From: an uncultured Eubacteriales bacterium
Lineage (GTDB): Bacteria > Bacillota > Clostridia > Peptostreptococcales > Anaerovoracaceae
Assembly: GCA_900315485.1 (NCBI GenBank)
Contig: OMZI01000024.1
Span: 1-44,938 of the forward strand
Length of the DNA: 44,938 nt
Direction of reading: 5' to 3'
This document shows, piece by piece, positions 7,458 through 40,037 of the stretch. Under the pieces are notes generated by a model. That model did not search any database, was not told the origin of the DNA, and worked only from the letters and a program-made list of their open reading frames with translations. The position numbers were made by a program, and so were the translations under genes. The stretch's first letter is position 1. Each line of letters opens with the position of its first letter.

Positions 7458-7587
7458 TATAGTTCTTCCTTTCTTGATTAATAAGCTGATATACGGATCC
7501 GCTCTCCTGCAAGACCGGAGCATCAGGATCCTTTGTTATCATATATGAATCTCTTGCCCTTAACGTATCTATTTTCTCAATTAAACA

Positions 7588-7614
7588 CGCCCCGTGTCAA
7601 TACTGAAAGGGGCG
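7588..7614 (-). terminator. Terminator between lplA and lpdA
   Basis: CGCCCC (7588-7593) pairs with GGGGCG (7609-7614). On the minus strand the stem is followed by TGTTTAATT. It lies about 70 bases after the lplA stop codon. CATTTTG follows on the plus strand, so it may act in both directions. Confidence 0.55.
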
Positions 7615-7680
7615 CATTTTGTTATTGTATTAACAAATAAGCAGAACTGTGGTTAGCTGATGGTTCCTGCAAGCAGGTGA

Positions 7681-8706
7681 TCACTCTACTGATGAAGCGA
7701 TAAGCTCGAGTATCTCGTATCCGGCTGCGGAAGCGCCCTGCGGGAGCCTCAGTCCGAGTATCTCGGATGCGTCGTACCTGCAGCCGGGCAGCAGCTCTTC
7801 TATCTGAGGGAAGAGGTCGGTCTCGAGGGAGTCCGAGTACAGGCGGCATGAGTCTATGTACTCTCCGCGCATGTCGAGCTGGATCTCGACTCCTCCCCAG
7901 TCAAAACGGTGTTCTATCACCTTGCTGAACGGTATCCTGGTGCCGAGACGCCACTCTTCGGATGCGTATTTATCCTTAAGCTCCTGAGGTATCTCCGGCA
8001 GCTCTGCCTGAACGGCGCTGCAGCCGTACTCTCTTTCAGCTGCTCTTACGAGCGCGTCCTGCATCTCGCGGACAGCCTTCTTCGTACGAGTCTTCTCAGA
8101 CGTTTTGCCCGCAGGACCGCATATCTTCTTAAGGCGGTCTTCAGGGATCTGGTCCATAAGGTTGGTCACGCGGGACTTCACGGATGCGACGCCCTTGGAC
8201 TGCAGCTTGGACTCGGAGACGTTGAGATATCTCGGCAGATCATCGCCGGAAACGTTCATCATGATAGTTCCGTGGTGATAGTTGAAGCCGTGTGAAGAGT
8301 AGTAGGCGTGGCCTGAGAACTTCTTGCCGTCGGCTGTAAGGTCATTGCGGCCGGTCTTCTCGGCGCTGATGCCCATAAGCCTGCAGGCAAGAAGAATGAC
8401 ATCAGTCTGTCTGCTGATATCGTAAAGACCGTCGCGGGCGATGAATGTAAAATTCAGGTTGCCCATGTCGTGGTAAACGGCACCGCCGCCGGACATGCGT
8501 CTTGCGAGGTATACGCCGTCTGCCTTGATCTGCTCGACATTGCACTCGCGCCATGGATTCTGGTTCTTTCCGATGACGACTGTGTGCGCGTTCTGCCACA
8601 GGAAGAGTATCATCTCGTCTTCTTCGGCATGGAAGGTGAGATATTCCTCAGCTGCGAGATTGTCGTACGGATTGGTGCAGTCGGTTCTGATTACTGTTAG
8701 TTTCAT
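7681..8706 (-). CDS. lplA: Lipoate-protein ligase
   Basis: The 341-residue enzyme activates lipoate with ATP and attaches it to a lysine of GcvH, whose target lysine is encoded in the same block. The catalytic domain (about 1-240) shows RRMSGGGAVYHDMGNLNF, which binds lipoyl-AMP, and DGKKFSGHA with the catalytic lysine, followed by HHGTIMMNV. The C-terminal accessory domain (about 260-341) is present, as in full-length LplA. The ribosome site is weak (AAGAGAA), but a well-spaced promoter lies upstream. No lipA or lipB is in the window, so lipoate scavenging is suggested but not shown. Confidence 0.93.
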   Translation of the reverse strand: MKLTVIRTDCTNPYDNLAAEEYLTFHAEEDEMILFLWQNAHTVVIGKNQNPWRECNVEQIKADGVYLARRMSGGGAVYHDMGNLNFTFIARDGLYDISRQTDVILLACRLMGISAEKTGRNDLTADGKKFSGHAYYSSHGFNYHHGTIMMNVSGDDLPRYLNVSESKLQSKGVASVKSRVTNLMDQIPEDRLKKICGPAGKTSEKTRTKKAVREMQDALVRAAEREYGCSAVQAELPEIPQELKDKYASEEWRLGTRIPFSKVIEHRFDWGGVEIQLDMRGEYIDSCRLYSDSLETDLFPQIEELLPGCRYDASEILGLRLPQGASAAGYEILELIASSVE

Positions 8707-13350: not shown

Positions 13351-14691
13351 CTATGCTATTCTATAGGTGAAGTTGATTGCAGCGCCTTTGCTTTGTTTAG
13401 ACAAGTGACGCTCATATTTCCGATTTGGCCGAATCGGAACAATATATTTTGCAATCAATGATTCAACATCCGGCGGATGCATTTTTTCAGAAAGAAATTT
13501 CCTGCATATATGAACAGCGGCAGAGAAATTGACCTTGTATGTATGTTTACGTTTTGACTCGTGAACGATCACCTGGGCAGTGATCCATTCCGTGAAGTTG
13601 TAGACGATAAGAGCTGCATACACTTCCTGAAAGATGCATTCTGCTTTTTTTGAGTGAAAATGCAACATCCCCACCGTATATTTAAGGCTTCTGAAGGAAG
13701 TCTCTATCCCCCAGCGTAAGGCATACAGCTCCTTTAATCTTTCAGAAGGATATTGATCCGCAGGCAGGTTTGTGATCAAAGTTTCCAACAGATCATCAGA
13801 TATCCTTACCCGTACTATCCTGTACTCGAGATTGTAAAAGACAGTCTTTGTTCCGTAAGTTCCCGTTAACAGCGGAAGATAGTCGAAGTTCATATTTTTG
13901 GGGACATACCTGTAGTGGTTCTTGTCTTTGCACAGTTCTTTAACTTCATTCGTGGAGCTTCGAGTCAGGTTCATGGAGATCTCAAGATCGAATTCGTCAT
14001 CGGCAGGCAGGTCTAACCCGCTTACAATTCCGTTTTTTCCATCTTTTATACGAGCAAGATAGAACCAGCCTCTTTCATGGATATGCGCAAAAGTGTTATA
14101 CGATTCATAACCACGGTCGACGATGACAAGAGCCTTTTCGATTGGCGATGATTCTGCCAGTTCAATCAGGGCTTTGTGTTCATTCTGCTTTCGACTCTTT
14201 TGGATGACCGCATCTAAATATGTCCTTTGAAGCAGGTCGTAAAGAGCATTCAGGTGGATCAGATTATACGGCTTTTGGCCATTTACGCCCGGATAGAATG
14301 AATCCTCATCATCAGGATTCATCGGCATCTGGATATCCGAGCCGTCTACAGCAAGGATACGAAGTCCGTTTTCTGTTTCTGGTTGCTCCATATTCTCCAT
14401 CTGGGAGTTGAAGTTGATCAGCAACGATCTGAATGCCTCCGGTTTCAGCTTGTCTCTCATCTGTACGACCGCGGATGAGGATACGATAGATTTCTCATTG
14501 GAAAAGAAATCTATTATCTCACTCGTTAAAGGTCCTCCGCGCATATTGAGGATAAAAGAGATCAGTGTACAAAAGGGCAATTTCCTTTTTCTCGTAAAAT
14601 CCCGCCCCGGACTGCGACAATAAAGTTCCGGATGTTCGGATAGCTTTTGGATCTGTTTGACCAGAGATCGTTTTACACATGCTGCGTCCAT
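13351..14691 (-). CDS. IS4 family transposase
   Basis: The 446-residue DDE transposase shows the catalytic aspartates in LAVDGSDIQMP and VIVDRGYES. The IS4 YREK signature is in YALRWGIETSFRSLKY, which contains the catalytic glutamate. The reading frame is uninterrupted and of normal length, so it may be active. AGGAGG six bases before the ATG at 14691 favours this start over one six codons upstream. The coding region looks more AT-rich than its neighbours, in keeping with a mobile origin. Confidence 0.93.
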   Translation of the reverse strand: MDAACVKRSLVKQIQKLSEHPELYCRSPGRDFTRKRKLPFCTLISFILNMRGGPLTSEIIDFFSNEKSIVSSSAVVQMRDKLKPEAFRSLLINFNSQMENMEQPETENGLRILAVDGSDIQMPMNPDDEDSFYPGVNGQKPYNLIHLNALYDLLQRTYLDAVIQKSRKQNEHKALIELAESSPIEKALVIVDRGYESYNTFAHIHERGWFYLARIKDGKNGIVSGLDLPADDEFDLEISMNLTRSSTNEVKELCKDKNHYRYVPKNMNFDYLPLLTGTYGTKTVFYNLEYRIVRVRISDDLLETLITNLPADQYPSERLKELYALRWGIETSFRSLKYTVGMLHFHSKKAECIFQEVYAALIVYNFTEWITAQVIVHESKRKHTYKVNFSAAVHICRKFLSEKMHPPDVESLIAKYIVPIRPNRKYERHLSKQSKGAAINFTYRIA

Positions 14692-14734
14692 TTCGGCACC
14701 TCCTTTCAAGCGTGTGTCCTAGCTCTGATCAAAA

Positions 14735-20215: not shown

Positions 20216-20431
20216 ATGGCACTTTCATTAGATTCCAAGATCAAGGACATCATGAGATCACCTGAGGGCAAGGCTGTTATGGAAAAGTGGGCACCTGGTT
20301 CAACATCAGATCCAAGAATGAAGCTGGTAGGCGCACTGACATACCGCAAGCTGCTGAGCTATCCTGAATCAGCTGAGGTAGCTGTTCATGCAGATGAAAT
20401 CGATGCAGAACTGAAGGCGTGCTCAAGATAA
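20216..20431 (+). CDS. Small 71-residue protein, unknown function
   Basis: The protein is soluble and mainly helical. Its pattern (LSLDSKIKDIMRSPEGKAVMEKWAPG, then MKLVGALTYRKLLSYP) resembles a short helical module that I recall at the C-terminus of some Firmicutes hydrolases and dehydrogenases; that similarity is from memory and uncertain. A strong AAAGGAGG site precedes the ATG and a strong terminator follows, so it is a real gene. It neighbours the PucR regulator and the SDR/GcvT-like cluster, which may be its functional context. Confidence 0.75.
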   Translation: MALSLDSKIKDIMRSPEGKAVMEKWAPGSTSDPRMKLVGALTYRKLLSYPESAEVAVHADEIDAELKACSR

Positions 20432-20449
20432 TATAGCAATAAAAGAAGA

Positions 20450-20496
20450 GGGCTTCGCATCCGGCTGTTAACATGAGCCGGTGCGGGCCCTTTTTT
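20450..20496 (+). terminator. Rho-independent terminator
   Basis: A long stem from GGGC (20450-20453) to GCCC (20487-20490), including CCGGCT/AGCCGG, is followed by TTTTTT. It ends the small gene and converges on the PucR gene. Confidence 0.85.
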
Positions 20497-20508
20497 CGTG
20501 TGTTCATG

Positions 20509-22050
20509 TCAGTTTGATCTCATGAGTTCCTCGATGCTCATAGCCTTGAGAAGGATCTCAAGCTGAAGCCTTCTGTCAGAATCCCGGAGATCTATCCCGA
20601 GTTCCCGTTCGATCCTTGATATGCGGTCTATGAGTGTTGAACGGTGAATATACAGGCGTTTTGCTGTAGCGGTATATGACATGTTCTCCTCCAGAAAGGC
20701 TGTAAGTGTCTGAAGGTATGAGATGCCGCCATCCTTGTCGTGTTCAAGAAGTGAGGCAAAACCTGCCGGATAGTACGCTTCAGGAGGAAGCCCGCCAAGA
20801 GAGTTGATGACCATTTCCGTAAGTGCGTAGCTCTCAAAATAGAAAAGCGTTCCCTGAGGAGCCAGCAAGGTTCCGTTTTCGGAAGCGGACCTTGCCTGAA
20901 GATAGTAGACGCGGATGCTGAAAATATCTGAAAACTCATTGGATATGCCCGCGTACATTCCCATCTGTTCAGCAAGATGACGGAGCTTCTCATTCAGCAC
21001 AGGGAGGTATTCTGACGGCTGGTCCTGGGCGGCAGAACAGAGCCTGCCTGTATTGATAAATGCAAGGACAGCATTGTCATGTATGAAAGCCGGGGAATCA
21101 GCAAAGGTGTCCTCGAGTATGTCACAGATGTATGAAAGAGGAAGCTGGTTGTTCATTCTGTTGAACCGGAGATACACGCATCTGTATACAGTCATTCTGT
21201 TGGAGCTGTTAATGAGCAGTCTCTGCGAATAGGAAAGAGGCTGCTCTTCGACCAGATTCTGCATCGCCTTACGAATCGAGGAATCCGGATCATAAAGAAC
21301 GGAAGGGTTTCGCTCCATGGCGGTCTGAAGGCACTTTGCAAGAAACTCGGCAAGTGCACTGTCTCCATCAGAGAAATCATCGTTTTCATATGCAACAACC
21401 AGACAACCGATATACTGGTCATACTTGCTGAAAAGATTGACACAGAGGGACCTGTTGCCATAGATGTTGACCTTTAATGCGCTTTTTTCATTGGTTCTGA
21501 GGTCTGATGCTGACAGGAATTTTGACAGGGATTCAGCGTTAAGCGTTCCGGTCCCGGTGCTTGCCCATGCCGACTCCTGGAATGCGGCCGTGCTTGTGAC
21601 CACTTTGAATGATTTGTCCAGCAGATACAGCGGCCGCCCGAATATCTCTGATGAATCGGACAACAGCTTTTCTGCATCAGGAGATGAGATAAGATCATTC
21701 AGCAGAGTATTCTCCCAGCTGTCGTACTTGTCGTAAATGCTCTGCAGCAGCTGGTAAACCTTGAAGAAGTCACTCCTGCTTTTTATTGTAATGAGGCACA
21801 GATTATCTCTGTAATGATTCAGAGTAAAATTCTCGCCGATACAGACGAGAACACAGTCTTCCTGTATGCGCGGCCGCTGGGGAAGGTGTTCGACCGTTGC
21901 GAGGTAGAGATGTCCGGACTGAAATACGAACTCACTCTCCATGTAGAATTCAGGACGGGATATTGTAAGGGATTCATTCCTCGGACCGGAGATATCCGCG
22001 TTATAGTGACGCGTGAGTTCCCTGTATATGATATCTGCGTTGAGCTTCAT
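20509..22050 (-). CDS. PucR/CdaR-type transcriptional regulator
   Basis: The 513-residue protein ends in the PucR-type helix-turn-helix (about 455-500: LTAFLEENMSYTATAKRLYIHRSTLIDRISRIEREL). The central region is likely a GGDEF-like or GAF-like sensor. The N-terminal 120 residues resemble regulators of purine and aromatic catabolism. AAGGAGTG precedes the ATG at 22050. It diverges from the SDR, cysteine-rich and GcvT-like genes, so it is the likely activator of that set. The effector is probably the substrate, which is unknown. Confidence 0.85.
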   Translation of the reverse strand: MKLNADIIYRELTRHYNADISGPRNESLTISRPEFYMESEFVFQSGHLYLATVEHLPQRPRIQEDCVLVCIGENFTLNHYRDNLCLITIKSRSDFFKVYQLLQSIYDKYDSWENTLLNDLISSPDAEKLLSDSSEIFGRPLYLLDKSFKVVTSTAAFQESAWASTGTGTLNAESLSKFLSASDLRTNEKSALKVNIYGNRSLCVNLFSKYDQYIGCLVVAYENDDFSDGDSALAEFLAKCLQTAMERNPSVLYDPDSSIRKAMQNLVEEQPLSYSQRLLINSSNRMTVYRCVYLRFNRMNNQLPLSYICDILEDTFADSPAFIHDNAVLAFINTGRLCSAAQDQPSEYLPVLNEKLRHLAEQMGMYAGISNEFSDIFSIRVYYLQARSASENGTLLAPQGTLFYFESYALTEMVINSLGGLPPEAYYPAGFASLLEHDKDGGISYLQTLTAFLEENMSYTATAKRLYIHRSTLIDRISRIERELGIDLRDSDRRLQLEILLKAMSIEELMRSN

Positions 22051-22317
22051 GGGTAACACTCCTTGTTCTGTACCGTCAAAATGTAGGACTCTTGTTAATA
22101 ATAATAGCAAAAAAGACGGGCCGGCGGGAGCATTTTAGCGCGAAATATTAAATCCCCATCAACTTCGCTGTAACAGGCTCCCTGATACCGACATAAAGTG
22201 GACAGAAGGCCTCAAAAAACCTCCGATTGTTGTATTATCGCAGGCCCGCAGCTTCAAGTAATATATCAGTGTCAACAATATTATAAAGAGGAAGTAGGTC
22301 AAAGGAGGGACTCTATT

Positions 22318-23223
22318 ATGGCTTTCACAGAATCTGATAAAGCAATGCTTGAGGGTTATATCGCATCCGCCCGTCCGTTTGCCGACATGTTCTCGGTAAA
22401 GGATAAGGTAGCACTTGTAACCGGAGGATCATCCGGACTTGGATTTGATATCACGCTCAGACTCCTTCAGGGAGGTGCCAAGGTAGTTATCGCATCCAAC
22501 TCCAGGATCGAGGAAGAGGCATCCATGCCGCTGTTCGCTGAGCAGGGCTTCGGAGATGATGTAAAGTTCTGCTTCACAGATGTAAGAGAGGAAGCAGACG
22601 TTGAGAAGCTGGTAGCATACACAGTTGACACTTTTGGCTCGCTGGATATTTTCGTCAACAGCGCTGCGATCTGGAATTATGCAAAAGTCTATGATCTGCC
22701 TAAGGAAGACCTCCAGCTGGTATTCGAAACCAACGTATACGGTGCTTTCTACGGAGTAAAGCATGTAAGCAAGTACATGAAGGAACACGGCATCGCGGGC
22801 AAGATCGTGCTGATCTCTTCAAACAGCCCGATAATGCCGTATCCGGTATTCGGAGGATATCCGCACTATGCATCAAGCAAGGCGGCTGTCATGGGTCTTG
22901 TGACAGAGGCGGCCAAGGAGCTCAAGAGATACGGGATCATGATCAACAGCATTGCACCGGGCGGAATGGTCACACCGGGCGCGGCAGGAAACCTCGCGAG
23001 CGAGCTTATCACTGAAGAGCAGCAGGATGAATTCTATGAAGAACTGATGGTATGGCAGGTAGACGGTCAGCTTCCTGTAGATCAGGTCGGAATGATGGCT
23101 TATACATTCTGCACCCCGGTAGCAGACGGGATCACAGGCGAGACCATCGTTGTAGACGGCGGCGCGACACACAATATCGTTAAGTACCAGGCTGCTATCG
23201 ATGCATTCCCTGAGGAAGAATAG
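22318..23223 (+). CDS. Short-chain dehydrogenase/reductase (SDR)
   Basis: The 301-residue NAD(P)-dependent oxidoreductase shows the Rossmann motif VTGGSSGLGFD near residue 33, NSAAIW near 118, the catalytic Ser region ISSNSP and YASSKAA with the catalytic Tyr-Lys. It extends about 20 residues at the N-terminus and 20 at the C-terminus relative to a minimal SDR. AAAGGAGG precedes the ATG at 22318, ruling out a longer in-frame start. It is the first gene of a three-gene unit with a cysteine-rich protein and a GcvT-like protein, so it may oxidise the substrate or product of that pathway. Confidence 0.92.
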   Translation: MAFTESDKAMLEGYIASARPFADMFSVKDKVALVTGGSSGLGFDITLRLLQGGAKVVIASNSRIEEEASMPLFAEQGFGDDVKFCFTDVREEADVEKLVAYTVDTFGSLDIFVNSAAIWNYAKVYDLPKEDLQLVFETNVYGAFYGVKHVSKYMKEHGIAGKIVLISSNSPIMPYPVFGGYPHYASSKAAVMGLVTEAAKELKRYGIMINSIAPGGMVTPGAAGNLASELITEEQQDEFYEELMVWQVDGQLPVDQVGMMAYTFCTPVADGITGETIVVDGGATHNIVKYQAAIDAFPEEE

Positions 23224-23236
23224 AGAGGTGGAAAAC

Positions 23237-24466
23237 ATGGGCAAAAAAATAGATGGAAGAATACCTCAGAATTCCGGCGACGGTGCCGGTTTCAAGCAGT
23301 ACAATGCAGTACAGTCACCATGGAACAAGCTTATGTCTTATCAGGATGCGCTCCACTATGCATCCAGATTCGAATCTGTCCTGAGTGCTGCTGTAGCTCA
23401 GGCATACAGGATCATCATTCCTGATTATGCTACAAGAGCATCCGAAATGTGCAAGGAAGCATATGGAAGACTGCTCTATACAGGAATGAACTATCCTAAT
23501 GATGACGGATTCGGCATCCATCCTTTCATGTGCGGATCATATCCGGGCGCACTTATCGGAGACAAGGGCGATGATGCTCTTCTGATGTGCGGAAGATGTC
23601 AGGATTTCGGAACATACAGATGCGAGAAGGAACTCGATGTCTGTGACTGGGATATCTGCGGCTCTGAGCTCTGCCGTGCAACGACCATGTCTCTTCAGGG
23701 ACAGGCAGACGCGACTGCAAGCAGACACCGCAAGGGCCACAAGCTCGACTACATGATGGTAGAAGCCAAGGGCTGCGGGGACAGACACTGCAGGATCATC
23801 GCAGAGAACAGAGAAAAATACCCTGCACCTGATCATGAACTGTGGGAGTCGTTCGGACCGGCAGTTTCCGATGATTATAAGAAATACACCGAGGAAGAGG
23901 ACTGCGTATCCGAATCCATGATGTTCAGGGAAGAGTGTAATTACCGTTTTGTCAACGGAACCAACAACGAGACGGATTCATCGAATCAGATGGTCAATAT
24001 GTCAACAGCTGCTTCCCTGTATCTGCTGCCTGCGATCGACAATGCTGTAAAGCTCGAGTACACAACTGCGGAGAATGCTGAATGGATCAAGAAGTGCGTA
24101 CTTGAAGCTGCAGGCAAAGCGATGTTCGGTGAGAGATACGCGATCAGAGCATGCAGAGAGTGGCTCGGCGTACCTGACAGCATCGGAGAAGACGGCAGAG
24201 TCCTCGGCGGAGTTATCGAGATGCTGCTGCAGTCGCTGGTATGCGGCTATGAGATCGAAGCCTTCAACAAAGATGAGGTCATCTATGTAATCAACAGAGG
24301 AGATCTTGCGATCACAGGAACGCAGTCCCTGTGTGAGGCTCATCTGTACATGTGGAACGGCATGGTCAAGACTCTGGTCAATGCTATGTGGTCCGTATGG
24401 GAAGAGGATTCTCCTAAGGGCAAGATGAGAATCAGGATCGGTAAGAAGATTGACAAGTTCATGTAA
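23237..24466 (+). CDS. Cysteine-rich protein of unknown family in the GcvT-like cluster
   Basis: This 409-residue soluble protein is not a family I recognise with confidence. The central part has many cysteines: Cys99, Cys118-x2-Cys121, Cys129, Cys136, Cys141, Cys146, then KGCGDRHC (Cys180, Cys185). Two His-rich spots follow (RHRKGH). The CGDRHC element faintly resembles the end of 4VR or thiazoline-carboxylate hydrolase-like domains. The C-terminal half is helical and cysteine-poor. The ATG at 23237, after AGAGAGGTGG, lies 14 bases past the SDR stop. Tight placement between an SDR and a folate-binding GcvT-like protein suggests a metal- or Fe-S-bearing partner or substrate-cleaving subunit; this is inference. 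Confidence 0.75.
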   Translation: MGKKIDGRIPQNSGDGAGFKQYNAVQSPWNKLMSYQDALHYASRFESVLSAAVAQAYRIIIPDYATRASEMCKEAYGRLLYTGMNYPNDDGFGIHPFMCGSYPGALIGDKGDDALLMCGRCQDFGTYRCEKELDVCDWDICGSELCRATTMSLQGQADATASRHRKGHKLDYMMVEAKGCGDRHCRIIAENREKYPAPDHELWESFGPAVSDDYKKYTEEEDCVSESMMFREECNYRFVNGTNNETDSSNQMVNMSTAASLYLLPAIDNAVKLEYTTAENAEWIKKCVLEAAGKAMFGERYAIRACREWLGVPDSIGEDGRVLGGVIEMLLQSLVCGYEIEAFNKDEVIYVINRGDLAITGTQSLCEAHLYMWNGMVKTLVNAMWSVWEEDSPKGKMRIRIGKKIDKFM

Positions 24467-24477
24467 GGAGGGCTGCG

Positions 24478-25500
24478 ATGAATAAGAATATTTTTGCACA
24501 TGACGAATGGAAACGTTCAGAGCACATGGCAGTCAGGGAGTGTGTGGGATATTATCTGTTCACTCACCAGATCATGGAGGTTACCGGACCGGATGCCTGC
24601 AGATTCCTGGATTACATGTATCCGAACAATATAGCGAACCTTGCTGTCGGCAGGGACAGATATACCACGATGCTCAATGATGACGGAGAGATAATCGATG
24701 ACGTTGTTATCATGAGACTCGAAGAGGAGAAATACTGGGTATCCACACTTTACGGAACACAGGCAGATGACTGGTTCTATTTCCACTCGGAGGATTACGA
24801 CCTGGATGCAAGCGAGATCACCGATGAGTGGCACATGTTCGCAGTACAGGGACCAAAGTCGAAGGATGTCATGAACAGCATTCTGGAAGGGAATGTCGAT
24901 GATCTGAAGTTCTTCATGCATAAGTGGGATAAGCTCGGCGAAGCGGAAGTGCTTGTAAACCGCGGCGGATTCACAGGAGAGAAGTTCGGATACGAAGTAT
25001 ACTGCACCGCTGATGATGCAGATGCAGTACAGGACGCGATCGATGCAGCGGTCAGGGCAGCAGGCGGAAAGGAAGTTACAGAGTTCCAGGTATTTGCATG
25101 GACACTTCCTACTGAGGCGGGGTTCTATTACATGAGAGATCTCGGCCACACCAATCCGTTTGAAGTCGGACTTGAGAAGAACATCAACTGGGACAAGGAC
25201 TTCATCGGAAAGGCTGCACTTGAGAAAGTAAGAGAGAACGGACCTGCAAGAGAAATGGTCGGATTTGAAGTCTGTGATGAATGCGAGGACTTCTATATCA
25301 CATCCAAGCAGTATGGCGGGCCGGGAGAGCCGGTCTATATCGACGGTGAAGAAATCGGCCGTGTATCCAAGCTGGTATATTCATACGTAAAGAATGTAAA
25401 CAACGGATATATCCTTGCGAAGAAGGGTGCGCTTCATATCGGTGATAAGATCAAGATCCACGGATATGACTGCGTGATCACGGAAAAGAAGTGGCTGTAA
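24478..25500 (+). CDS. GcvT-like folate-dependent C1 transferase
   Basis: The 340-residue protein has the GcvT fold: RYTTMLNDDGEIIDDVVI holds the conserved Asp pair (74-75), WHMFAVQGPKSKDV is typical, and RGGFTGEKFGYEVY matches the folate-contacting YTGE motif. It ends with the barrel domain (DFIGKAALEKV to the C-terminus). It is only distantly like the true GcvT encoded at 40038. Known relatives that act outside glycine cleavage include DMSP, syringate, vanillate and dicamba demethylases, which move a methyl group onto THF. Together with the SDR and the THF-to-formate genes downstream, demethylation or oxidative C1 transfer from an unknown substrate is the best guess. GGAGGG precedes the ATG. 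Confidence 0.88.
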   Translation: MNKNIFAHDEWKRSEHMAVRECVGYYLFTHQIMEVTGPDACRFLDYMYPNNIANLAVGRDRYTTMLNDDGEIIDDVVIMRLEEEKYWVSTLYGTQADDWFYFHSEDYDLDASEITDEWHMFAVQGPKSKDVMNSILEGNVDDLKFFMHKWDKLGEAEVLVNRGGFTGEKFGYEVYCTADDADAVQDAIDAAVRAAGGKEVTEFQVFAWTLPTEAGFYYMRDLGHTNPFEVGLEKNINWDKDFIGKAALEKVRENGPAREMVGFEVCDECEDFYITSKQYGGPGEPVYIDGEEIGRVSKLVYSYVKNVNNGYILAKKGALHIGDKIKIHGYDCVITEKKWL

Positions 25501-25518
25501 TACTGACGAAATAAGAAT

Positions 25519-25561
25519 AACTCCGTTCCGTTCAGATTTCTGTCCGGAGCGGAGTTGCTTT
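25519..25561 (+). terminator. Rho-independent terminator of the SDR/GcvT-like unit
   Basis: AACTCCG (25519-25525) pairs with CGGAGTT (25550-25556), with an inner TCCG/CGGA, and is followed by GCTTTTATT. Confidence 0.8.
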
Positions 25562-25802
25562 TATTATGGTGTCTGGGGAAAATGTACGGAATGCCTGAAC
25601 GGCATCTGAGAATGACGAACAGGATTGCGGTTTTTCCTCATGCGGTTCGGAAATTCAGCGTATTACTGAAAAGAAGACAGGATTCATCAAAAAAGGGTCA
25701 CACTACGTTCTTTTAACCATTGTAAACATCTGATAAGATAAGACCTGCACGGATATGACAATCAATTTATCAGCCTAAGAATGTACCGCAGGAGGGAATG
25801 AT
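25562..25802. other. Leader region of the formate-THF ligase gene
   Basis: About 240 bp without a gene. Candidate promoter hexamers near 25713 (TTAACC) and 25734 (TAAGAT) are spaced only 15 bp apart, so they are weak. I looked for a THF or glycine aptamer and saw neither. An AGGAGGG ribosome site stands just before the next start codon. Confidence 0.4.
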
Positions 25803-27479
25803 ATGGCATATAAGACAGACATCGAAATCGCACAGGAATGCGAAAAGAAAAAGATCACTGACGTAGCAAAAGTCGCAGGCATCGATGACAAGTATCTCGA
25901 GCTGTACGGCAACTACAAGGCCAAGATCGACTTCTCATTCCTTAAGGATAATGCAGATAAAAAGAACGGCAAGCTGATCCTCGTGACAGCTATCACACCT
26001 ACTCCTGCAGGAGAGGGCAAGACAACAACTTCCGTAGGTCTTACAGACGGACTCCGTGCGATCGGCAAGAATGCGATCGTTGCGCTGAGAGAGCCTTCAC
26101 TCGGACCTGTATTCGGCATCAAGGGCGGAGCAGCAGGCGGCGGATATGCCCAGGTAGTTCCGATGGAGGACATCAACCTCCACTTCACCGGAGACTTCCA
26201 CGCTATTGGTGCAGCAAACAACCTGCTTGCAGCAATGCTCGACAACCACATCCAGCAGGGCAACGCTCTCGGTATCGATCCTAAGCAGATCACATGGAAG
26301 AGAGCTGTTGACATGAACGACCGTCAGCTCCGCAACATCGTTGACGGACTCGGCGGCAAGGCACAGGGCGTGCCTCGTGAAGACGGTTTTGACATCACAG
26401 TAGCATCCGAGGTAATGGCAGTGCTTTGCCTGTCTTCAGATATCACTGACCTCAAGGAAAGATGCGGACGCATCATCGTAGGATATACATACGGCGGAGA
26501 GCCTGTAACTGCACACGACCTCAAGGCTGAGGGCGCTATGGCCGCACTCCTGAAGGATGCACTCAAGCCTAACCTCGTACAGACACTTGAAGGAACCCCT
26601 GCATTCGTACACGGCGGACCTTTTGCCAACATCGCTCACGGCTGCAACTCAGTTACAGCTACAAGAATGGCTCTCAAGATCGGAGACTACATCGTAACAG
26701 AAGCAGGCTTCGCTGCTGACCTCGGAGCTGAGAAGTTCCTCGACATCAAGTGCCGCATGGCAGGTCTCAAGCCTGACGCTGTAGTAATGGTAGCTACAGT
26801 AAGAGCTCTCAAGTACCACGGCGGAGTTGCCAAGGCAGACCTCAACGAGGAGAACCTCGAAGCTCTCGAGAAGGGACTTCCTAACCTTCTCCAGCACGTC
26901 AGCAACATCAAGGACGTTTACGGACTCCCTTGCGTAGTAGCGATCAACGCTTTCCCTACAGACACCAAGGCTGAGCTTGACCTCGTCGAGGCAAAGTGCA
27001 GGGAGCTCGGAGTCAACGTCGCTCTGTCCGAAGTATGGGCAAAGGGCGGCGAAGGCGGCAAAGCTCTTGCTGAGGAAGTCGTAAGACTCTGCGACCAGCC
27101 GAATGACTTCAGATTCTCCTATGACCTCGACATGTCGATCGAAGAGAAGCTGGAAGCTATCTGCAAGAAGATCTACCACGCAGACGGCGTCACTCTCACA
27201 CCGGGAGCAAGAAAGCAGCTCAAGAAGCTCGAAGAGATCGGCTGCAGCGGAATGCCTATCTGCATGGCCAAGACACAATACTCCTTCTCGGATGACGCAT
27301 CCCTGCTCGGAGCACCTAAGGACTTCACCATCACGGTCAGAAATCTCAAGGTATCCGCAGGTGCAGGCTTCATAGTTGCACTCACAGGCGATATCATGAC
27401 GATGCCTGGACTGCCGAAGTCACCTGCAGCAGAGAGGATCGATGTAGATGAAAACGGAGTGATCAGCGGATTATTCTAA
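25803..27479 (+). CDS. fhs: Formate-tetrahydrofolate ligase
   Basis: The 558-residue enzyme interconverts formate, ATP and THF with 10-formyl-THF, ADP and phosphate. The nucleotide-binding loop [16 protein letters not shown] is near residue 64. The conserved [23 protein letters not shown] block and the C-terminal [14 protein letters not shown] motif are intact. Length is normal. It is followed by fchA and folD, giving the complete methylene-THF to formate segment. In a glycine- or methyl-degrading anaerobe the enzyme can run toward ATP synthesis. A hairpin separates it from fchA, but the genes probably share transcription in part. Confidence 0.97.
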
Positions 27480-27490
27480 AGATACAGATC

Positions 27491-27520
27491 ATAAGCCGGG
27501 GCGAAGGTCCCGGCTTATTT
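27491..27520 (+). terminator. Hairpin between fhs and fchA
   Basis: ATAAGCCGGG (27491-27500) and CCCGGCTTAT (27509-27518) form a perfect 10-base stem followed by only TTTC. It is probably a partial terminator or mRNA-stabilising structure that keeps fhs levels above fchA. Confidence 0.55.
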
Positions 27521-27536
27521 CAGAAAGAGGACGATT

Positions 27537-28151
27537 ATGTTCGTAGATAAGACGATAACTGAATTCATGAATGAGCTCGCTTCGAATGCACCTGTTCCGG
27601 GAGGCGGCGGGGCGTCAGCGCTTATCGGCGCAGTCGGAGTTTCGCTTGGAGACATGGTCGGAGAGCTCACCACAGGCAAGAAAAAATATGCTGATGTGGA
27701 AGAGGACATTCAGAGGCTCATGAGAGACGCGAAGGAGGTCAAAGACGAATTCCTCCGCCTGATAGACGCCGATGCAGAGGCTTTTGCACCTCTTGCCAGA
27801 GCATACGGGATACCTAAGGACGAGCCCGGCCGTGATGAGATCATGGAAGAGGCTCTGAAGAACGGCGCTGCCGTACCTATGGACATAATGCGGACCTGCG
27901 GCAGGGCCCTGGATATCATTGAGGAGTTTGCAGAAAAAGGCTCGCGCCTTGCTGTCTCTGATGCCGGATGCGCTGCGGCAAGCTGCAAGGCTGCGATGCA
28001 GGCGGCATCGCTCAATGTCTTTATCAATACAAAATCCATGAAGGACAGGCCGCATGCAGAAGCTCTGAACGCAGAGGCGGATCAGCTGCTGGCAAAGTAT
28101 ACAGTCCTTGCGGACAAAATCTTTGATTCAGTAGCAGGTAAACTGAGATAA
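27537..28151 (+). CDS. fchA: Methenyltetrahydrofolate cyclohydrolase
   Basis: The 204-residue protein belongs to the formiminotransferase-cyclodeaminase C-terminal family. In folate-fermenting Clostridia, stand-alone members hydrolyse 5,10-methenyl-THF to 10-formyl-THF. The N-terminal FMNELASNAPVPGGGGASALIGA motif is diagnostic, and the helical layout and length fit. The neighbouring FolD lacks cyclohydrolase residues, which supports the cyclohydrolase role here rather than histidine degradation; no hut genes are near. AGAAAGAGGA precedes the ATG. Confidence 0.92.
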   Translation: MFVDKTITEFMNELASNAPVPGGGGASALIGAVGVSLGDMVGELTTGKKKYADVEEDIQRLMRDAKEVKDEFLRLIDADAEAFAPLARAYGIPKDEPGRDEIMEEALKNGAAVPMDIMRTCGRALDIIEEFAEKGSRLAVSDAGCAAASCKAAMQAASLNVFINTKSMKDRPHAEALNAEADQLLAKYTVLADKIFDSVAGKLR

Positions 28152-28213
28152 TGTGACACCGGGGACGGTTCCTTTTGACACATTATGCCAATGGGGGCGG
28201 TTCTCAATGACAT
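28150..28213. repeat. Two degenerate REPIN-like palindromes in tandem
   Basis: Unit one has arms AATGTGACA and TGACACATT (28150-28158, 28176-28184) around GGGGACGGTTC. Unit two has arms ATGCCAATG and CAATGACAT (28185-28193, 28205-28213) around GGGGGCGGTTCT. The pair fills the gap between fchA and folD and overlaps the fchA stop codon. Confidence 0.7.
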
Positions 28214-28240
28214 ATCTAAAAGCAGTTGGGAGAATATAAA

Positions 28241-29095
28241 ATGGCTGAAATATTAAAAGGTGCACCGGTAGCTGCAGCTATCACCGCGCAGATGCAGAAA
28301 GATGTTGAAGGCCTTAGGGCAAAGGGCGTTGACCCGACGCTTGCCATCCTCCGCGTCGGAGAGAGGCCGGACGATCTCGCGTATGAGAGAGGCGCTTTGA
28401 AGAGGGCTGAGAAAGCCGGAGTTACAGTTAAGCAGGTCGTGCTGCCGGAGGATGTATCACAGGATGACTTCGACAGGACGCTCGCCGGGCTTAATGAGGA
28501 CGCAGGCGTTCACGGGATCCTGATGCTCCGTCCGCTGCCTGCACAGCTTGACAATGAGCGCGCAAGGCAGATGCTGGCACCGGAGAAGGATATCGACGGA
28601 TGCACCGACGGCTCACTTGCCGGCGTTTTTACCAATACTAAAACAGGATTCCCTCCATGCACCGCACAGGCGGCAATGGAGATGCTGCACTATTACGGAT
28701 ACGATGTAAAAGGAAAGAAAGTCGCAGTCATAGGCAGGTCACTGGTTATCGGAAGACCTGTTGCGATGATGCTGATGCATGAGAATGCGACAGTAGTCAA
28801 CTGCCACACTAAGACTGTCGACGTTCCGTCGATCACACGAGAAGCGGACATCATAATCGCAGCTGCAGGCAGACTCAGAAACGTAACACCGGATTTCGTC
28901 AAAGAAGGCCAGGTGATCATCGATGTCGGCGTCAACTGGGATGAGGAGAAGGGCGGCATCGCAGGAGATGTTGACTTTGATGCAGTCGAGCCGCTGGTCT
29001 CGGCGATCACACCTGTTCCGGGCGGCGTCGGAACTGTAACCAGCTCGGTGCTCATCTCCCATGTCGTTGAGGCGGCAAAACGAACGATCGAGTAG
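28241..29095 (+). CDS. folD: FolD-type methylene-THF dehydrogenase with altered cyclohydrolase residues
   Basis: The 284-residue protein has the usual FolD fold: RVGERPDDLAYERG, PEKDIDG, the NAD(P) loop VIGRSLVIGRPVA and TPVPGGVGTVT. The normal YxxxK motif reads Y48-E-R-G-Ala52, so the catalytic lysine of the cyclohydrolase is missing. The usual VQLPLP reads M-L-R-PLP, so the partner glutamine is Leu96. Asp119 of the KDxDG motif remains. In human MTHFD, changes at the equivalent lysine abolish cyclohydrolase while dehydrogenase persists. A dehydrogenase-only enzyme working with FchA is therefore likely. The ATG at 28241 follows GGGAG. Confidence 0.92.
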   Translation: MAEILKGAPVAAAITAQMQKDVEGLRAKGVDPTLAILRVGERPDDLAYERGALKRAEKAGVTVKQVVLPEDVSQDDFDRTLAGLNEDAGVHGILMLRPLPAQLDNERARQMLAPEKDIDGCTDGSLAGVFTNTKTGFPPCTAQAAMEMLHYYGYDVKGKKVAVIGRSLVIGRPVAMMLMHENATVVNCHTKTVDVPSITREADIIIAAAGRLRNVTPDFVKEGQVIIDVGVNWDEEKGGIAGDVDFDAVEPLVSAITPVPGGVGTVTSSVLISHVVEAAKRTIE

Positions 29096-29125
29096 TCAGA
29101 AACGATCCCCGGAGAACAGTTTGCG

Positions 29126-29155
29126 TTGACTGACAATGCATTTAATAAATACAAT
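29126..29155 (+). promoter_or_regulatory. Sigma-70-type promoter of the formate channel gene
   Basis: TTGACT (29126-29131) and TACAAT (29150-29155) are spaced 18 bp apart, about 100 bases before the start codon. Confidence 0.65.
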
Positions 29156-29263
29156 AGATGGCGGTAACAAGTGTTACTGATGGGGTCTTATCAGCATGCT
29201 ATTATTACAGATGAGGAAGCGCGCTGCAGATCGTATTCAATAAGGGAAAAGAGGAAATTAATT

Positions 29264-30028
29264 ATGGGCGTCAATTCACCAGCAGAGATCACTGAAATAT
29301 GGATCAATAACGGAATCAAGAAGGCGAATCTGTCCGTGGGCAAAATGCTTGTCCTCGGGATGCTTGCCGGAGCATATATCGGATTTGGTGCGAACGTGTT
29401 CGTGCTTGCAACGGCTGCAGGAGGCGATCCGTTCCAGAGCATGGTCGCCAAGCTTATCGGAGCGGCTCTGTTCCCGGTCGGCCTGATGATGGTCATCCTG
29501 TGCGGGGCTGAGCTCTTCACAGGCAACAACCTTCTGACACTTGCTCTGATGGATAAGAAGATCACAGCAGGCAAAATGCTTAAAAACTGGGTGATCGTAT
29601 ACATAGGTAATCTGATCGGATCGGTACTGCTCGCGTTCGTTCTGGCTAAGAGCGGACTGTTTGCCGATGCCGCAGGTGAGAGAGCAATGGCGATCGCGGC
29701 TTCCAAGACTTCGATCCCGTTCATGCCTGCCGTACTCAGAGGTATTGGCTGCAACGTCCTGGTAGTCCTTGCGTGCTGGCTGCAGGCCGGAGCCAAGGAT
29801 ATGATCGGAAAGATCTTCGCTATCTGGTTCCCGATCATGATGTTCGTATTCGCAGGATTTGAGCACAGCGTAGCCAACATGACATACATCCCTCTGGGGA
29901 TTTTCCTCGGTGCGGATGTTAGCTGGGGAGCATTCTTCCTCGCGAACCTGGTGCCTGTAACCATCGGCAACCTGATAGGCGGCGCAGTAGTGATACCGTT
30001 TGCATATTACTACGCATACAAGAAATAA
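29264..30028 (+). CDS. focA: Formate/nitrite transporter family channel (FocA-like)
   Basis: The 254-residue integral membrane protein has six hydrophobic helices and the FNT signatures LCGAELFTGNNL and FAGFEHSVANMTYIPLG. FNT channels pass formate, nitrite or similar small anions. Its place directly after fhs, fchA and folD makes formate export, with uptake also possible, the likely role. AGAGGAAATTAATT precedes the ATG at 29264; a longer in-frame start upstream has no ribosome site. It has its own promoter and may be regulated apart from the folate enzymes. Confidence 0.92.
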   Translation: MGVNSPAEITEIWINNGIKKANLSVGKMLVLGMLAGAYIGFGANVFVLATAAGGDPFQSMVAKLIGAALFPVGLMMVILCGAELFTGNNLLTLALMDKKITAGKMLKNWVIVYIGNLIGSVLLAFVLAKSGLFADAAGERAMAIAASKTSIPFMPAVLRGIGCNVLVVLACWLQAGAKDMIGKIFAIWFPIMMFVFAGFEHSVANMTYIPLGIFLGADVSWGAFFLANLVPVTIGNLIGGAVVIPFAYYYAYKK

Positions 30029-30043
30029 ACTGTAAACTGATAA

Positions 30044-30072
30044 TTGACCGCAGTGGCATATACTGCTATTAT
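30044..30072 (+). promoter_or_regulatory. Sigma-70-type promoter of the THF-riboswitch/folT transcript
   Basis: TTGACC (30044-30049) and TATTAT (30067-30072) have a 17-bp spacer. The predicted start near 30079 places the whole THF aptamer in the leader. Confidence 0.75.
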
Positions 30073-30107
30073 TTAGGCACAATAGAACACGAAAGAACCT
30101 ATTGGTA

Positions 30108-30192
30108 AAGTAGGAATGACGCGTCAAGTGCTGCAGGATGGGAAGTTGTCTGCAGACGAAGGGCAGGGCCCGCGGTGTCATCTCCGCTTCCG
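30108..30192 (+). promoter_or_regulatory. Tetrahydrofolate riboswitch aptamer (folT RNA type)
   Basis: The leader carries the conserved order of the THF-I class: AATGACGCGTCAAGTG, GGATGGGAAGTTGTC, ACGAAGGGC, then CCCGCGGTGTCAT and a closing CTCCGCTTCC. The match was made by eye to the known consensus. Its position before an ECF folate-transporter subunit gene is the classic location. Binding of reduced folate is expected to lower downstream expression. Confidence 0.85.
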
Positions 30193-30228
30193 TTGCCGCT
30201 GAAGAGACTTCTTTGTGGCAATAGTTTT
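30193..30228 (+). terminator. Expression-platform terminator of the THF riboswitch
   Basis: TTGCC (30193-30197) pairs with GGCAA (30217-30221), with inner AAG/CTT pairs, and TAGTTTTATC follows. It starts directly after the aptamer and would form when folate is bound. Confidence 0.6.
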
Positions 30229-30274
30229 ATCTTAATGTTTTTAGGTAGGCTGATGCCGGAAAGGAGTTTTTATT

Positions 30275-30847
30275 ATGGATGTAAAATCCTTTGCAAACAG
30301 GACCGGACGCACGCGTACCCAGCAGCTTGCGACTGATGCTTTGCTCGCTGCGATGTGCGTAGTACTTGGATTCATGTCGATCAGGATCGGCAATATCATG
30401 AAGATATCGCTGGAGGATTTCCCGGTCATACTGGCTGCGCTGATGTACGGACCGGGAGAGGGAATGATCGTAGCCTTCGTAGGCATATTCCTGTATCAAT
30501 TGCTGAGTTTCGGCATAACTGCGACAACTTTGCTTTGGGTACTTCCGTTCGTCGTAGTCGGAGGACTTGCCGGGCTCTATGCGAAAAAATTCAATTTCAA
30601 CAATGAGCCTAAACAGATCCTGGGAGTATTCCTCGTTTCAGAGATACTCATCTGCCTTCTCAATACCGGCGCGATCTATGTTGATTCCAAAATGTTCGGC
30701 TACTACTACCCGACAATCATCACAGGCATGATCGCGATCAGGATGGTTACAGCAATCGGAAAGGGCATCGTCCTCGGACTGATATCTCCACCGCTGCTGA
30801 AGACTCTTTCAAGGGTGACCGGTAACGGAAGAAGAGCGATCAAATAA
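30275..30847 (+). CDS. folT: ECF transporter S component, folate type (FolT-like)
   Basis: The 190-residue membrane protein has about five or six helices and begins with TQQLATDALLAAMCVVLGFMSIRIGN, the ECF S-component start that docks with EcfT. SLEDFPVILAALMYGPGEG is typical of folate-type S subunits. Control by a THF riboswitch supports folate as the substrate. The energising EcfA and EcfT subunits are not in this window and are presumably shared. AAAGGAG precedes the ATG. Confidence 0.9.
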   Translation: MDVKSFANRTGRTRTQQLATDALLAAMCVVLGFMSIRIGNIMKISLEDFPVILAALMYGPGEGMIVAFVGIFLYQLLSFGITATTLLWVLPFVVVGGLAGLYAKKFNFNNEPKQILGVFLVSEILICLLNTGAIYVDSKMFGYYYPTIITGMIAIRMVTAIGKGIVLGLISPPLLKTLSRVTGNGRRAIK

Positions 30848-32615: not shown

Positions 32616-33365
32616 ATGGAAACGAAGGAGATTCTGGAAAGATATAAAAACGGAGAAATAACACTCGAGGAGGCCGAGCACTACTTCAGCCGCAAGCCGT
32701 TCGAGGAGCTCGGATATGCCAAGCTGGATATGCACAGGGAGGTCCGCTCGGGATTCCCTGAGGTGGTTTACTGTGCAGGCAAGCCGGATGAGTTCATAGT
32801 GAACATCTACAGGACTCTCCTGGAGAAGAACGGCGAGGTGTTCGGTACACGTGCGACTCAGCACCAGTATGAGCTGGTGAAGGAAGCTATTCCGAACATC
32901 GAGTATGATCCGGTGTCACATATATTAAAGAAGGAAAGAGATAAAAAGCATACGGGCAAAGTTGCTGTATGCTGCGCAGGTACTGCGGACATTCCGGTCG
33001 CAGAGGAAGCTGCACAGACAGCGGAGTTCTTCGGCTGCAATGTTGTCCGCACCTATGATGTAGGTGTCAGCGGGATACACAGACTGCTCTCAAGAGTGGA
33101 TGACCTGCAGGAGGCCAACTGCATAATAGCTGTAGCAGGCATGGAGGGCGCCCTTGCAAGCGTAGTAGGGGGACTTGTGAGGAACCCTGTCATCGCGGTG
33201 CCGACTTCGGTGGGATACGGCGCGAGCATGCACGGGCTGTCCGCGCTTCTGACGATGATCAATTCCTGTGCAAACGGGATCGCAGTCGTCAATATAGATA
33301 ACGGGTATGGAGCGGGCTATCTGGCAACTCAGATAAACAGGCTCGCAGGGAACGGAGAAGAATAA
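32616..33365 (+). CDS. larB: Nickel pincer cofactor biosynthesis protein LarB
   Basis: The 249-residue enzyme is homologous to PurE-type carboxylases at its C-terminus. It carboxylates and hydrolyses nicotinic acid adenine dinucleotide to start the nickel-pincer cofactor of lactate racemase and relatives. Motifs include VAVCCAGTADIPVAEEAA and VGGLVRNPVIAVPTSVGYGA. The stop overlaps the larC start by one base (TAATG). Neither larE nor larA is in the window, so the client enzyme is encoded elsewhere. Confidence 0.92.
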   Translation: METKEILERYKNGEITLEEAEHYFSRKPFEELGYAKLDMHREVRSGFPEVVYCAGKPDEFIVNIYRTLLEKNGEVFGTRATQHQYELVKEAIPNIEYDPVSHILKKERDKKHTGKVAVCCAGTADIPVAEEAAQTAEFFGCNVVRTYDVGVSGIHRLLSRVDDLQEANCIIAVAGMEGALASVVGGLVRNPVIAVPTSVGYGASMHGLSALLTMINSCANGIAVVNIDNGYGAGYLATQINRLAGNGEE

Positions 33366-34165
33366 TGAAGACTTTATACATCGACTGCGGCATGGGAGCT
33401 GCAGGAGACATGCTGACCGCAGCGCTGCTGGAGATAGCATGCAGGACTGAAAGCGGCCGTCCTGACAGAGAAGCCATAGAAAAGTTCGCTTCCGGGTTCA
33501 ATAAGATCGGTATCCCGGGAGTCGGGATGAAGGCAGTGCAGTCCGAAAAGATGGGAATCACAGGTACGCACGTGCACATCTATGTGAATGGCGAAGAGGA
33601 GCACGAGCCTGAAGTGCCTCATGAACACGGACATCACCACCACCATGTTCACCGCTCGATGAAGGACATCGAGGAGATCATCAGCGGACTGGCAATAGAC
33701 GATGCAGTAAAAGAGGATGTCCTGAATGTGTACAGGATAATCGCAGAAGCGGAGGGTGCTGTCCACGGAAAGCCTGCAGGTGAGGTCCACTTCCACGAAG
33801 TGGGCACCATGGATGCTGTCGCTGATGTGACTGCGGTATGCATGCTGATGAGAGAGATCGCCCCTGAAGAGGTCATAGCTTCGCCTGTAGCTACCGGCTA
33901 CGGATCGGTCAGATGCGCACACGGCGTTTTGCCTGTGCCTGCACCTGCCACAGCCCTGATACTCCGCGGAGTACCTGCCTATGCGGGAGACATAGAGGGA
34001 GAACTCTGCACACCTACCGGCGCAGCACTTGTAAAATATTTTGCACAGAAATACTCGCAGATGCCTGTCATGAGCACCGAAGCGATAGGCTACGGACTCG
34101 GAACTAAGGATTTTGCGAAAGCAAACGTGATCCGCATCTTCTACGGAAGCAAGGTGGATATGTAA
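33365..34165 (+). CDS. larC: LarC N-terminal domain protein, shortened
   Basis: The 266-residue protein begins YIDCGMGAAGDMLTAALLE and includes the His-rich loop EHGHHHHHVHRSMKD and VHFHEVGTMDAVADV, all typical of the nickel-inserting cyclometallase LarC. It ends soon after IGYGLGTKDF. Full LarC is about 400 residues or, in Lactiplantibacillus, two parts (LarC1 and LarC2) joined by programmed frameshifting. Here hydF starts 16 bases after the stop and no LarC2-like sequence is visible in any nearby frame. Either LarC1 works alone or the C-terminal part is elsewhere. Translation is coupled to larB. Confidence 0.88.
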   Translation: MKTLYIDCGMGAAGDMLTAALLEIACRTESGRPDREAIEKFASGFNKIGIPGVGMKAVQSEKMGITGTHVHIYVNGEEEHEPEVPHEHGHHHHHVHRSMKDIEEIISGLAIDDAVKEDVLNVYRIIAEAEGAVHGKPAGEVHFHEVGTMDAVADVTAVCMLMREIAPEEVIASPVATGYGSVRCAHGVLPVPAPATALILRGVPAYAGDIEGELCTPTGAALVKYFAQKYSQMPVMSTEAIGYGLGTKDFAKANVIRIFYGSKVDM

Positions 34166-39764: not shown

Positions 39765-39952
39765 TCGGATGAACGGACCGAGAGAGACCGCTTGCGGCGC
39801 CGAAGGTGAATGCGAAAACTCTCAGGCAAAAGGATCGGACCGGGACGATACTTCGGAGAGCGCGCCGGAGAGCACGCACCAAAGGGGCAACCGGAAGCTA
39901 TGAATACGCAATTTGTGCAGAAGGGAATCTCTCAGGTAATGACGGAGGCATG
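39765..39952 (+). promoter_or_regulatory. Tandem glycine riboswitch
   Basis: Two glycine aptamers stand in series. The first contains GAGAGAGACCGC, GGCGCCGAAGGTGAATGCG and AAACTCTCAGGCAAAAGGA. The second contains CGGAGAGCGC, CCAAAGGGGCAACC and AATCTCTCAGGTAATGACGG. These match the conserved cores of the gcvT element, compared by eye. The downstream gene makes glycine cleavage T-protein and SHMT, so glycine-induced expression is expected, as in known gcvT riboswitches. Confidence 0.93.
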
Positions 39953-39986
39953 GTAAGCTTACGGGTTTACTATGCTTATTTTATTT
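39949..39986 (+). terminator. Expression-platform terminator of the glycine riboswitch
   Basis: CATGGTAAGC (39949-39958) pairs over ten bases, two of them G-U, with GTTTACTATG (39965-39974), followed by CTTATTTTATTT. Its 5' arm overlaps the closing strand of aptamer two (GGAGGCATGG), so aptamer folding and termination would compete. Confidence 0.75.
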
Positions 39987-40037
39987 GTCGCTAATTGTTA
40001 ACCCAAAGGAAAATATGTAAGGAGAAAGGAAAAGACA

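Follow-up and report, generated by a model that had tools for sequence, protein, structure and literature searches.

The window analysed here, that is, the whole stretch of 44,938 nucleotides, is contig OMZI01000024.1 (contig C30 of genome G000 in our handles) of assembly GCA_900315485.1, which comes from an uncultured Eubacteriales bacterium of the Anaerovoracaceae and is 86% complete. In this window, the gene of a PucR-type regulator diverges from three genes that encode a short-chain dehydrogenase/reductase (SDR), a protein of 409 aa here called UNK, and a stand-alone GcvT-like protein here called GcvTL. The trio is followed by fhs, fchA-like and folD genes for one-carbon (C1) units carried by tetrahydrofolate (THF), by the gene of a channel of the formate/nitrite family (FNT), and by folT behind a THF riboswitch (Table 1). 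All these genes had been named in an original prediction made from the sequence alone; each was located at the place given there, and the profile and riboswitch scores confirm the layout. The names fchA and folD rest on Pfam and not on NCBIfam cut-offs, since the fchA-like product scored 190.1 bits against the 275 of the FchA equivalog and FolD reached no cut-off among the 25 NCBIfam models listed, whereas both of its Pfam domains exceeded theirs. Likewise, the channel stayed below the FocA equivalog (194 against 290.1 bits) and FolT fell just short of TIGR04518 (54.7 against 60 bits).

Table 1. Features of the locus in window coordinates. Start codons of the PucR (22050, minus strand), SDR (22318) and UNK (23237) genes were taken from the sequence; the ATG of the SDR gene is preceded by the ribosome-site-like sequence AAAGGAGGG.
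Feature	Position	Strand	Score
PucR-type transcriptional regulator, divergent from the trio	20509..22050	-	C-terminal HTH_30 69.3 bits (cut-off 27)
SDR	22318..23223	+	adh_short_C2 147.6 bits (cut-off 27)
UNK, 409 aa	23237..24466	+	no Pfam or NCBIfam match at E 0.001
GcvTL, stand-alone GcvT-like protein, 340 aa	24478..25500	+	GCV_T 158.3 bits (cut-off 25.6)
fhs, formate-tetrahydrofolate ligase	25803..27479	+	NF010030 947.9 bits (cut-off 652)
fchA-like, methenyl-THF cyclohydrolase	27537..28151	+	FTCD_C 211.7 bits (cut-off 24.5)
folD, methylene-THF dehydrogenase/cyclohydrolase	28241..29095	+	THF_DHG_CYH_C 181.8 bits, THF_DHG_CYH 103.4 bits
FNT channel	29264..30028	+	TIGR00790 238.1 bits (cut-off 232.3)
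THF riboswitch RF01831	30104..30197	+	74.9 bits (gathering score 36)
folT, folate ECF transporter S component	30275..30847	+	PF12822 54.9 bits (cut-off 30.7)

The pairing of UNK with GcvTL is conserved well beyond this organism. An alignment of three UNK proteins was used as the query against the named genome collection, and the best 80 of 162 relatives gave 79 loci; together with the whole-genome loci and the window, the survey comprises 86 UNK copies (rows) in 84 sources, of which two are duplicates (L010 = L026, L011 = L083), so that the copies represent 84 distinct places. GcvTL is encoded directly after UNK, within 500 bases, in 82 of the 86 rows. Three of the other rows (L064, L081, L090) stop at a contig edge, and in L033 the GcvTL gene (6607-7977) has an early frame start, which put it outside the distance cut-off. 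The trio is thus kept together across genomes, a point on which the original prediction had staked itself. An SDR gene lies upstream in 59 rows, downstream in 15 and in neither place in 10, with two rows undecided, and these SDRs are drawn from different subgroups; we therefore read UNK-GcvTL as the core of the unit and the SDR as an exchangeable part. A PucR gene on the opposite strand precedes UNK in 67 rows, is not found so placed in 10, in some of which it is co-directional, and is undecided near a contig end in nine.

Of 398 genomes sampled across the phylum, three gave a match to UNK, the window's genome included, with GcvTL adjoining in each (in reversed order in L123), and so did six of 393 genomes of the order. 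Among 47 genomes of the window's genus, seven encode a GcvTL of at least 422 bits, other GcvT proteins reaching at most 147.6 bits, and UNK adjoins GcvTL in all seven; no UNK without GcvTL appeared in the genus genomes screened for UNK (the 47 minus G440-G442, judged by handle numbers), and G442 carries both. By UNK, the closest named twins, at 99% identity, are L032 ('uncultured Clostridiales bacterium RUG11020') and L012 (an uncultured Clostridia bin), while the Mogibacterium-labelled metagenome-assembled genome (MAG) RGIG2438 (L026) was assigned to the window's genus because its contig is that of G378. Judged by the titles of their records, hosts of the trio comprise rumen and gut Clostridia, Erysipelotrichaceae, Blautia, Lachnospiraceae and Coriobacteria, with Blautia schinkii, Blautia parvula, Fusibacillus kribbianus, Fusibacter paucivorans and Alkalibacter mobilis as named isolates. 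The best matches in Erysipelotrichaceae and Solobacterium MAGs share 91-93% (UNK), 85-89% (SDR) and 79-83% (GcvTL) identity with the window, whereas outside the near twins identity is at most 56% for PucR, 49% for FchA and 60% for FolD, and 74-84% for Fhs. The high values of the trio across a class boundary, set against the lower ones of PucR, FchA and FolD, suggest that it has moved between classes by transfer. No publication on this trio was found, as judged by titles and the openings of abstracts.

Two or three UNK-GcvTL copies occur in single genomes (L017; L067; the assembly holding L043, L062 and L082), and in L017 and L067 the copies adjoin different SDRs, which suggests that they serve different substrates. 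At 17 loci (L013, L014, L036, L063 and L089 among them) there is also a small protein, often of 84-110 aa, with the conserved core MALSLDSKIK...LVGALTYRKLLSYPE, whose gene, at the loci where its position was established, adjoins the PucR gene.

GcvTL belongs to the GCV_T superfamily (PF01571) and is closer to GcvT and dimethylglycine dehydrogenase than to DmdA or LigM. Among NCBIfam models it scored 159.6 bits with the GcvT subfamily, 135.7 with trimethylamine N-oxide (TMAO) demethylase and 117.5 with sarcosine oxidase, all below cut-off; it also stayed below the cut-offs of the GcvT equivalog (TIGR00528, 135.9 against 235.85), DmdA (NF009133, 113.6 against 410), LigM (NF047885, 67.1 against 580) and DesA (NF047633, 79.9 against 800). 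The structure model (pLDDT 92.5) found its best fold match in the T-protein 1wos (E 1.6e-36), and the ranking ran from GcvT and dimethylglycine dehydrogenase to DmdA (rank 18) and LigM (rank 24). All 30 members compared have Y62, D75 and E173; these residues align with Y83, D96 and E195 of T. maritima GcvT, which we take to be folate-site residues. A repair role like that of YgfZ or IBA57 was considered and rejected, as the motif KGC[YF]xGQE, presumably the signature of these folate-binding repair proteins, occurs in none of the 30 members.

Twenty-five members of the UNK family gave no usable match in Pfam and NCBIfam (the Pfam matches, with E 0.037 at best, fell in various unrelated families), and searches by sequence found nothing in the PDB (best E 0.39) or in PHROGs. 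C138, C148, H186 and C187 are invariant in 25 of 25 diverse members (numbering of the 411-residue reference, 23231-24463), and these four residues could bind a metal. The description of UNK as cysteine-rich calls for caution: besides C138, C148 and C187, C182 is retained in 20 of the 25, and C120, C123 and C131 vary. The structure model (pLDDT 82, pTM 0.85) weakly resembles the H-NOX, TRAPP Bet3 and phenol-sensor domains: 45 of the 50 Foldseek matches listed are H-NOX, TRAPP Bet3 or the phenol-sensing domains of PoxR, DmpR and MopR, with E of 0.014 at best, and four of the other five are designed proteins. We take V4R/XylR_N phenol sensors, H-NOX and TRAPP Bet3 to form one fold class, from which UNK differs in that its E values are at least 0.014, no profile matches it and no DNA-binding domain was seen in it. 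Two further candidates failed: ATC_hydrolase (PF14196) has a similar Cys/Trp spacing by eye, but hhalign gave a probability of at most 0.3% with members from 12 loci and there was no Pfam match, and an internal duplication hinted at by secondary structure received no support when the two halves were aligned by hhalign.

Folate genes recur beside the trio. At least one of fhs, fchA and folD lies near it in 18 of the 84 sources (folD in 15, fchA in 15, fhs in nine), and folT in four; a relative of the formate channel stands beside it in this window only. The arrangements are diverse. In the window and its near twins L012 and L032, fhs comes after GcvTL; L021 carries SDR-UNK-GcvTL-SDR-SDR-fhs-fchA-folD-folT in one run; folD-fchA-fhs lies beyond PucR in L019, L022 and L081, and folD-fchA does so in nine Erysipelotrichaceae or Solobacterium loci. 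Of two Coriobacteriaceae MAGs, L066 has fhs-fchA-folD 6.6 kb downstream of the trio, and L033 a partial fhs at the far end of the contig. With one folD per 2-3 Mb, about 0.5 would be expected by chance in the 1.3 Mb surveyed, an arithmetic estimate for loci that are not independent. In addition, all but one of the 37 trio genomes gave an Fhs match, several of them in the form of fragments only. We are highly confident that the trio is linked to THF-dependent C1 catabolism. In L019 and L022, a folC-like gene and folT stand downstream in one run with SDR-UNK-GcvTL-SDR, by eye, so that here the unit appears to bring a folate supply of its own.

The oxidation level of the carbon was approached through the enzymes that make or use 5-methyl-THF. 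MetF was searched under 38 handles, which are 37 distinct trio genomes because G171 and G435 are one genome; Fhs, the acetyl-CoA synthase family (PF03598) and Pterin_bind (MetH, AcsE, FolP) were searched under 37, G435 being left out. MetF, already reported as missing from the window, was not found anywhere in its assembly, nor in 11 other trio genomes (G000, G001, G005, G034, G378, G408, G409-G413 and G421 are the 12); these include all six genomes examined from the window's genus and G005, which is 99% complete. Pterin_bind matched in 28 of the 37 trio genomes. Among the 12 that lack MetF it was absent in nine, while G005, G034 and G421 have one frame of 273-303 aa, FolP-like by length; MetE was absent in 11 of these 12. 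PF03598 reached at least 200 bits in 15 of the 37 genomes and gave any match in 24, with less than 40 bits in the window's genus. In 11 of the 12 genomes without MetF, 5-methyl-THF would therefore have no recognisable use, and methylene-THF has one; the carbon is probably delivered at the methylene level.

From these observations we propose, with confidence no better than evenly balanced, that UNK and GcvTL together make up a folate-dependent enzyme of two components, which moves carbon at the level of formaldehyde from an organic substrate to THF, with formate and ATP as the eventual products. The SDR would act first, oxidising or adjusting an alcohol group on the substrate. UNK, which may belong to a fold class that binds small, often aromatic, molecules, may hold or activate that substrate, and GcvTL would hold THF and receive the carbon as 5,10-methylene-THF, presumably in a complex of the two proteins. 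FolD and FchA would then oxidise methylene-THF to formyl-THF, Fhs would release formate with formation of ATP, and the channel would export formate in the window's organism, while the PucR-type protein may sense the substrate. The notion of the trio as a feeder of C1 units into THF is in this way sustained, both by the folate-site residues kept in GcvTL and by the C1 genes recurring in different gut lineages; its methyl-donor part is weakened.

The nature of the substrate could not be read from the surroundings. From 49 chosen loci, 148 neighbours were listed and 118 scanned, with no clear substrate signal, the commonest families being MFS_1 (6), BPD_transp_1 (5), and ABC_tran, ADH_N and AAA_21 (4 each). 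At E 1e-30, the window's SDR matched structures of borneol, glucose, hydroxybutyrate and hydroxyacyl-CoA dehydrogenases, which is not specific; an SDR of L085 matched many reductases, and the frame taken from L067 matched none at E 1e-10. A more specific form of the proposal, which we consider speculative and improbable as it stands, is an anaerobic, corrinoid-independent two-protein enzyme that would cleave a hydroxymethyl-type carbon and trap it on THF with no free formaldehyde, giving formate and ATP; at the same low probability, its target might be, for instance, a phenylpropanoid or another 1,3-diol, which would lose its terminal carbon once the SDR has oxidised the neighbouring alcohol.

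Several observations weigh against the proposed two-component enzyme. C1 genes were found close to the trio in no more than 18 of the 84 sources, many of them related, and the searched range holds no SDR in 10 of the 86 rows. The correlation of 0.92 (80 pairs) between the similarity matrices of the UNK and GcvTL families, against 0.69 for UNK and PucR (64 pairs), favours the pair, but the value for UNK and the upstream SDR is also 0.92 (56 pairs), and such correlations ignore kinship among species. Pairing of paralogues, tried as proof of a UNK-GcvTL complex, gave a mixed result, as L062 and L082 have nearest neighbours in the two families that do not match. In GcvTL, the position of Y188 of T. 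maritima GcvT is F in 29 of 30 members, and the segment of R227 is unconserved by eye; for UNK, none of the Foldseek matches listed has an E below 0.001. As for the oxidation level, MetF is present in 25 of the 37 trio genomes, which do not decide the question, G411 has a MetE-family match of 47.8 bits despite lacking MetF, and L018 has metF-metH about 8 kb from the trio; in addition, absence in draft assemblies is indirect, though it is consistent across them.

Part of this evidence could be claimed for a DmdA- or LigM-like demethylase that would turn an O-, N- or S-methyl group into 5-methyl-THF, towards which the original prediction had leaned. GcvTL is of the same superfamily, many of the trio genomes encode MetF or have a strong PF03598 match, and acetogens such as Blautia could use methyl-THF. 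We consider this unlikely, given the 11 genomes with neither MetF nor a recognisable user of methyl-THF, the presence of MetF near the trio in one of 83 sources, there beside metH, and scores with the DmdA, DesA and LigM models that are below that of GcvT and far under their cut-offs. The analogy with DmdA, LigM, DesA and dicamba methyltransferase stands for the superfamily, whereas the 5-methyl-THF it implied is weakened by the genomes without MetF, by the GcvT and TMAO demethylase scores and by the order of fold matches.

The folate genes of the window might also have another employer. The window holds gcvP halves and a dihydrolipoamide-dehydrogenase-like gene, and at 39769-42704 a glycine riboswitch is followed by a single 888-aa fusion of GcvT and serine hydroxymethyltransferase (SHMT; GCV_T 253.6, SHMT 150.3 bits), so that the C1 genes downstream may also be used for glycine. 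If fhs, fchA, folD and the channel served glycine or serine breakdown, the trio would be their neighbour and not their feeder, in keeping with the 66 of 84 sources, many with short flanks, in which C1 genes were not found near it; but folate genes recur next to the trio across different lineages and in different arrangements, such as the run of L021 or the folC-like gene and folT of L019 and L022, which makes this unlikely. The folate steps are reversible in principle and Fhs can supply C1 units from formate, so UNK-GcvTL could even be synthetic and use methylene-THF made from formate to hydroxymethylate or methylate a compound. This we judge very unlikely, since a divergent PucR-type regulator and exchangeable SDRs look catabolic, paralogues adjoin different SDRs, and the scanned neighbours show no evident biosynthetic set.

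Some further features of the window and its relatives deserve mention. GcvT matches in several other genomes of the genus fall in frames of about 880-913 aa, which suggests that the GcvT-SHMT fusion is present there too. A transposase with a DDE_Tnp_1 domain (13351-14709) separates the glycine cleavage genes from the trio, and the region 32616-34165 encodes a protein with an AIR-carboxylase domain, probably LarB, and a 266-aa nickel insertion protein, probably part of LarC, which spans positions 1-234 of 375 in the Pfam model.

Among the routes of anaerobic demethylation known from the gut, most use corrinoid methyltransferases. No B12-binding match was found on the window's contig, which sets the unit apart from such systems, and 'corrinoid-free' is thus apt for the window. 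It does not extend to the genome, whose B12-binding matches lie on contigs C45 and C41: C45 carries a corrinoid methyltransferase cluster (L115, 3359-8132) with a UroD-type methyltransferase, a corrinoid protein of 217 aa, a ferredoxin-like activator of 600 aa and a second methyltransferase, all named by eye. It looks like the mlp-type cluster without a THF methyltransferase that is described in PMC10418091. A B12-binding frame of 218 aa was also seen on contig C14 of G005 (L116), and in Alkalibacter mobilis a UroD-type methyltransferase gene (L080, 6908-8059) lies about 2 kb upstream of the trio, by eye.

Within the superfamily, GcvT, dimethylglycine dehydrogenase, sarcosine oxidase and TMAO demethylase transfer carbon at the level of formaldehyde to THF, as proposed here for GcvTL, and their GcvT domains have the fold and the folate-site residues in common with it; GcvTL differs in scoring below the GcvT equivalog cut-off, in having no flavin domain and in having UNK as its partner instead of GcvH. 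DmdA, LigM and DesA, which make methyl-THF, share with GcvTL the superfamily and C1 catabolism through THF; however, GcvTL stays below all their cut-offs, and MetF, which together with LigH and a host mutation was needed for LigM-based growth on vanillate according to PMC12997858, is missing in the window's organism. If our proposal is true, UNK would gain the first role for a protein family that matches no Pfam or NCBIfam model, and the folate-only route to formate and ATP would be a B12-independent way to live on the one-carbon groups of diet compounds. A further precedent by description, not by sequence, may be the THF-dependent demethylenases BrdA and SesA, GcvT-like enzymes that take a methylene unit off a plant compound and pass it to THF; according to PMC5547118, purified BrdA was active with THF in the absence of any partner protein, whereas GcvTL adjoins UNK and an SDR. 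A possible chemical parallel, again drawn from description and not from sequence, lies in the Cgamma-formaldehyde lyases LdpA and PcfL with the SDRs LigD and LigL, in which an SDR and the loss of formaldehyde from a lignin-type dimer are combined, with no THF trapping mentioned in the passages of PMC12997858 that were considered. The UNK-GcvTL unit, if it does cleave a hydroxymethyl-type carbon, would be an anaerobic counterpart of such aerobic formaldehyde-releasing lignin enzymes, spread among the gut bacteria of ruminants and other animals.

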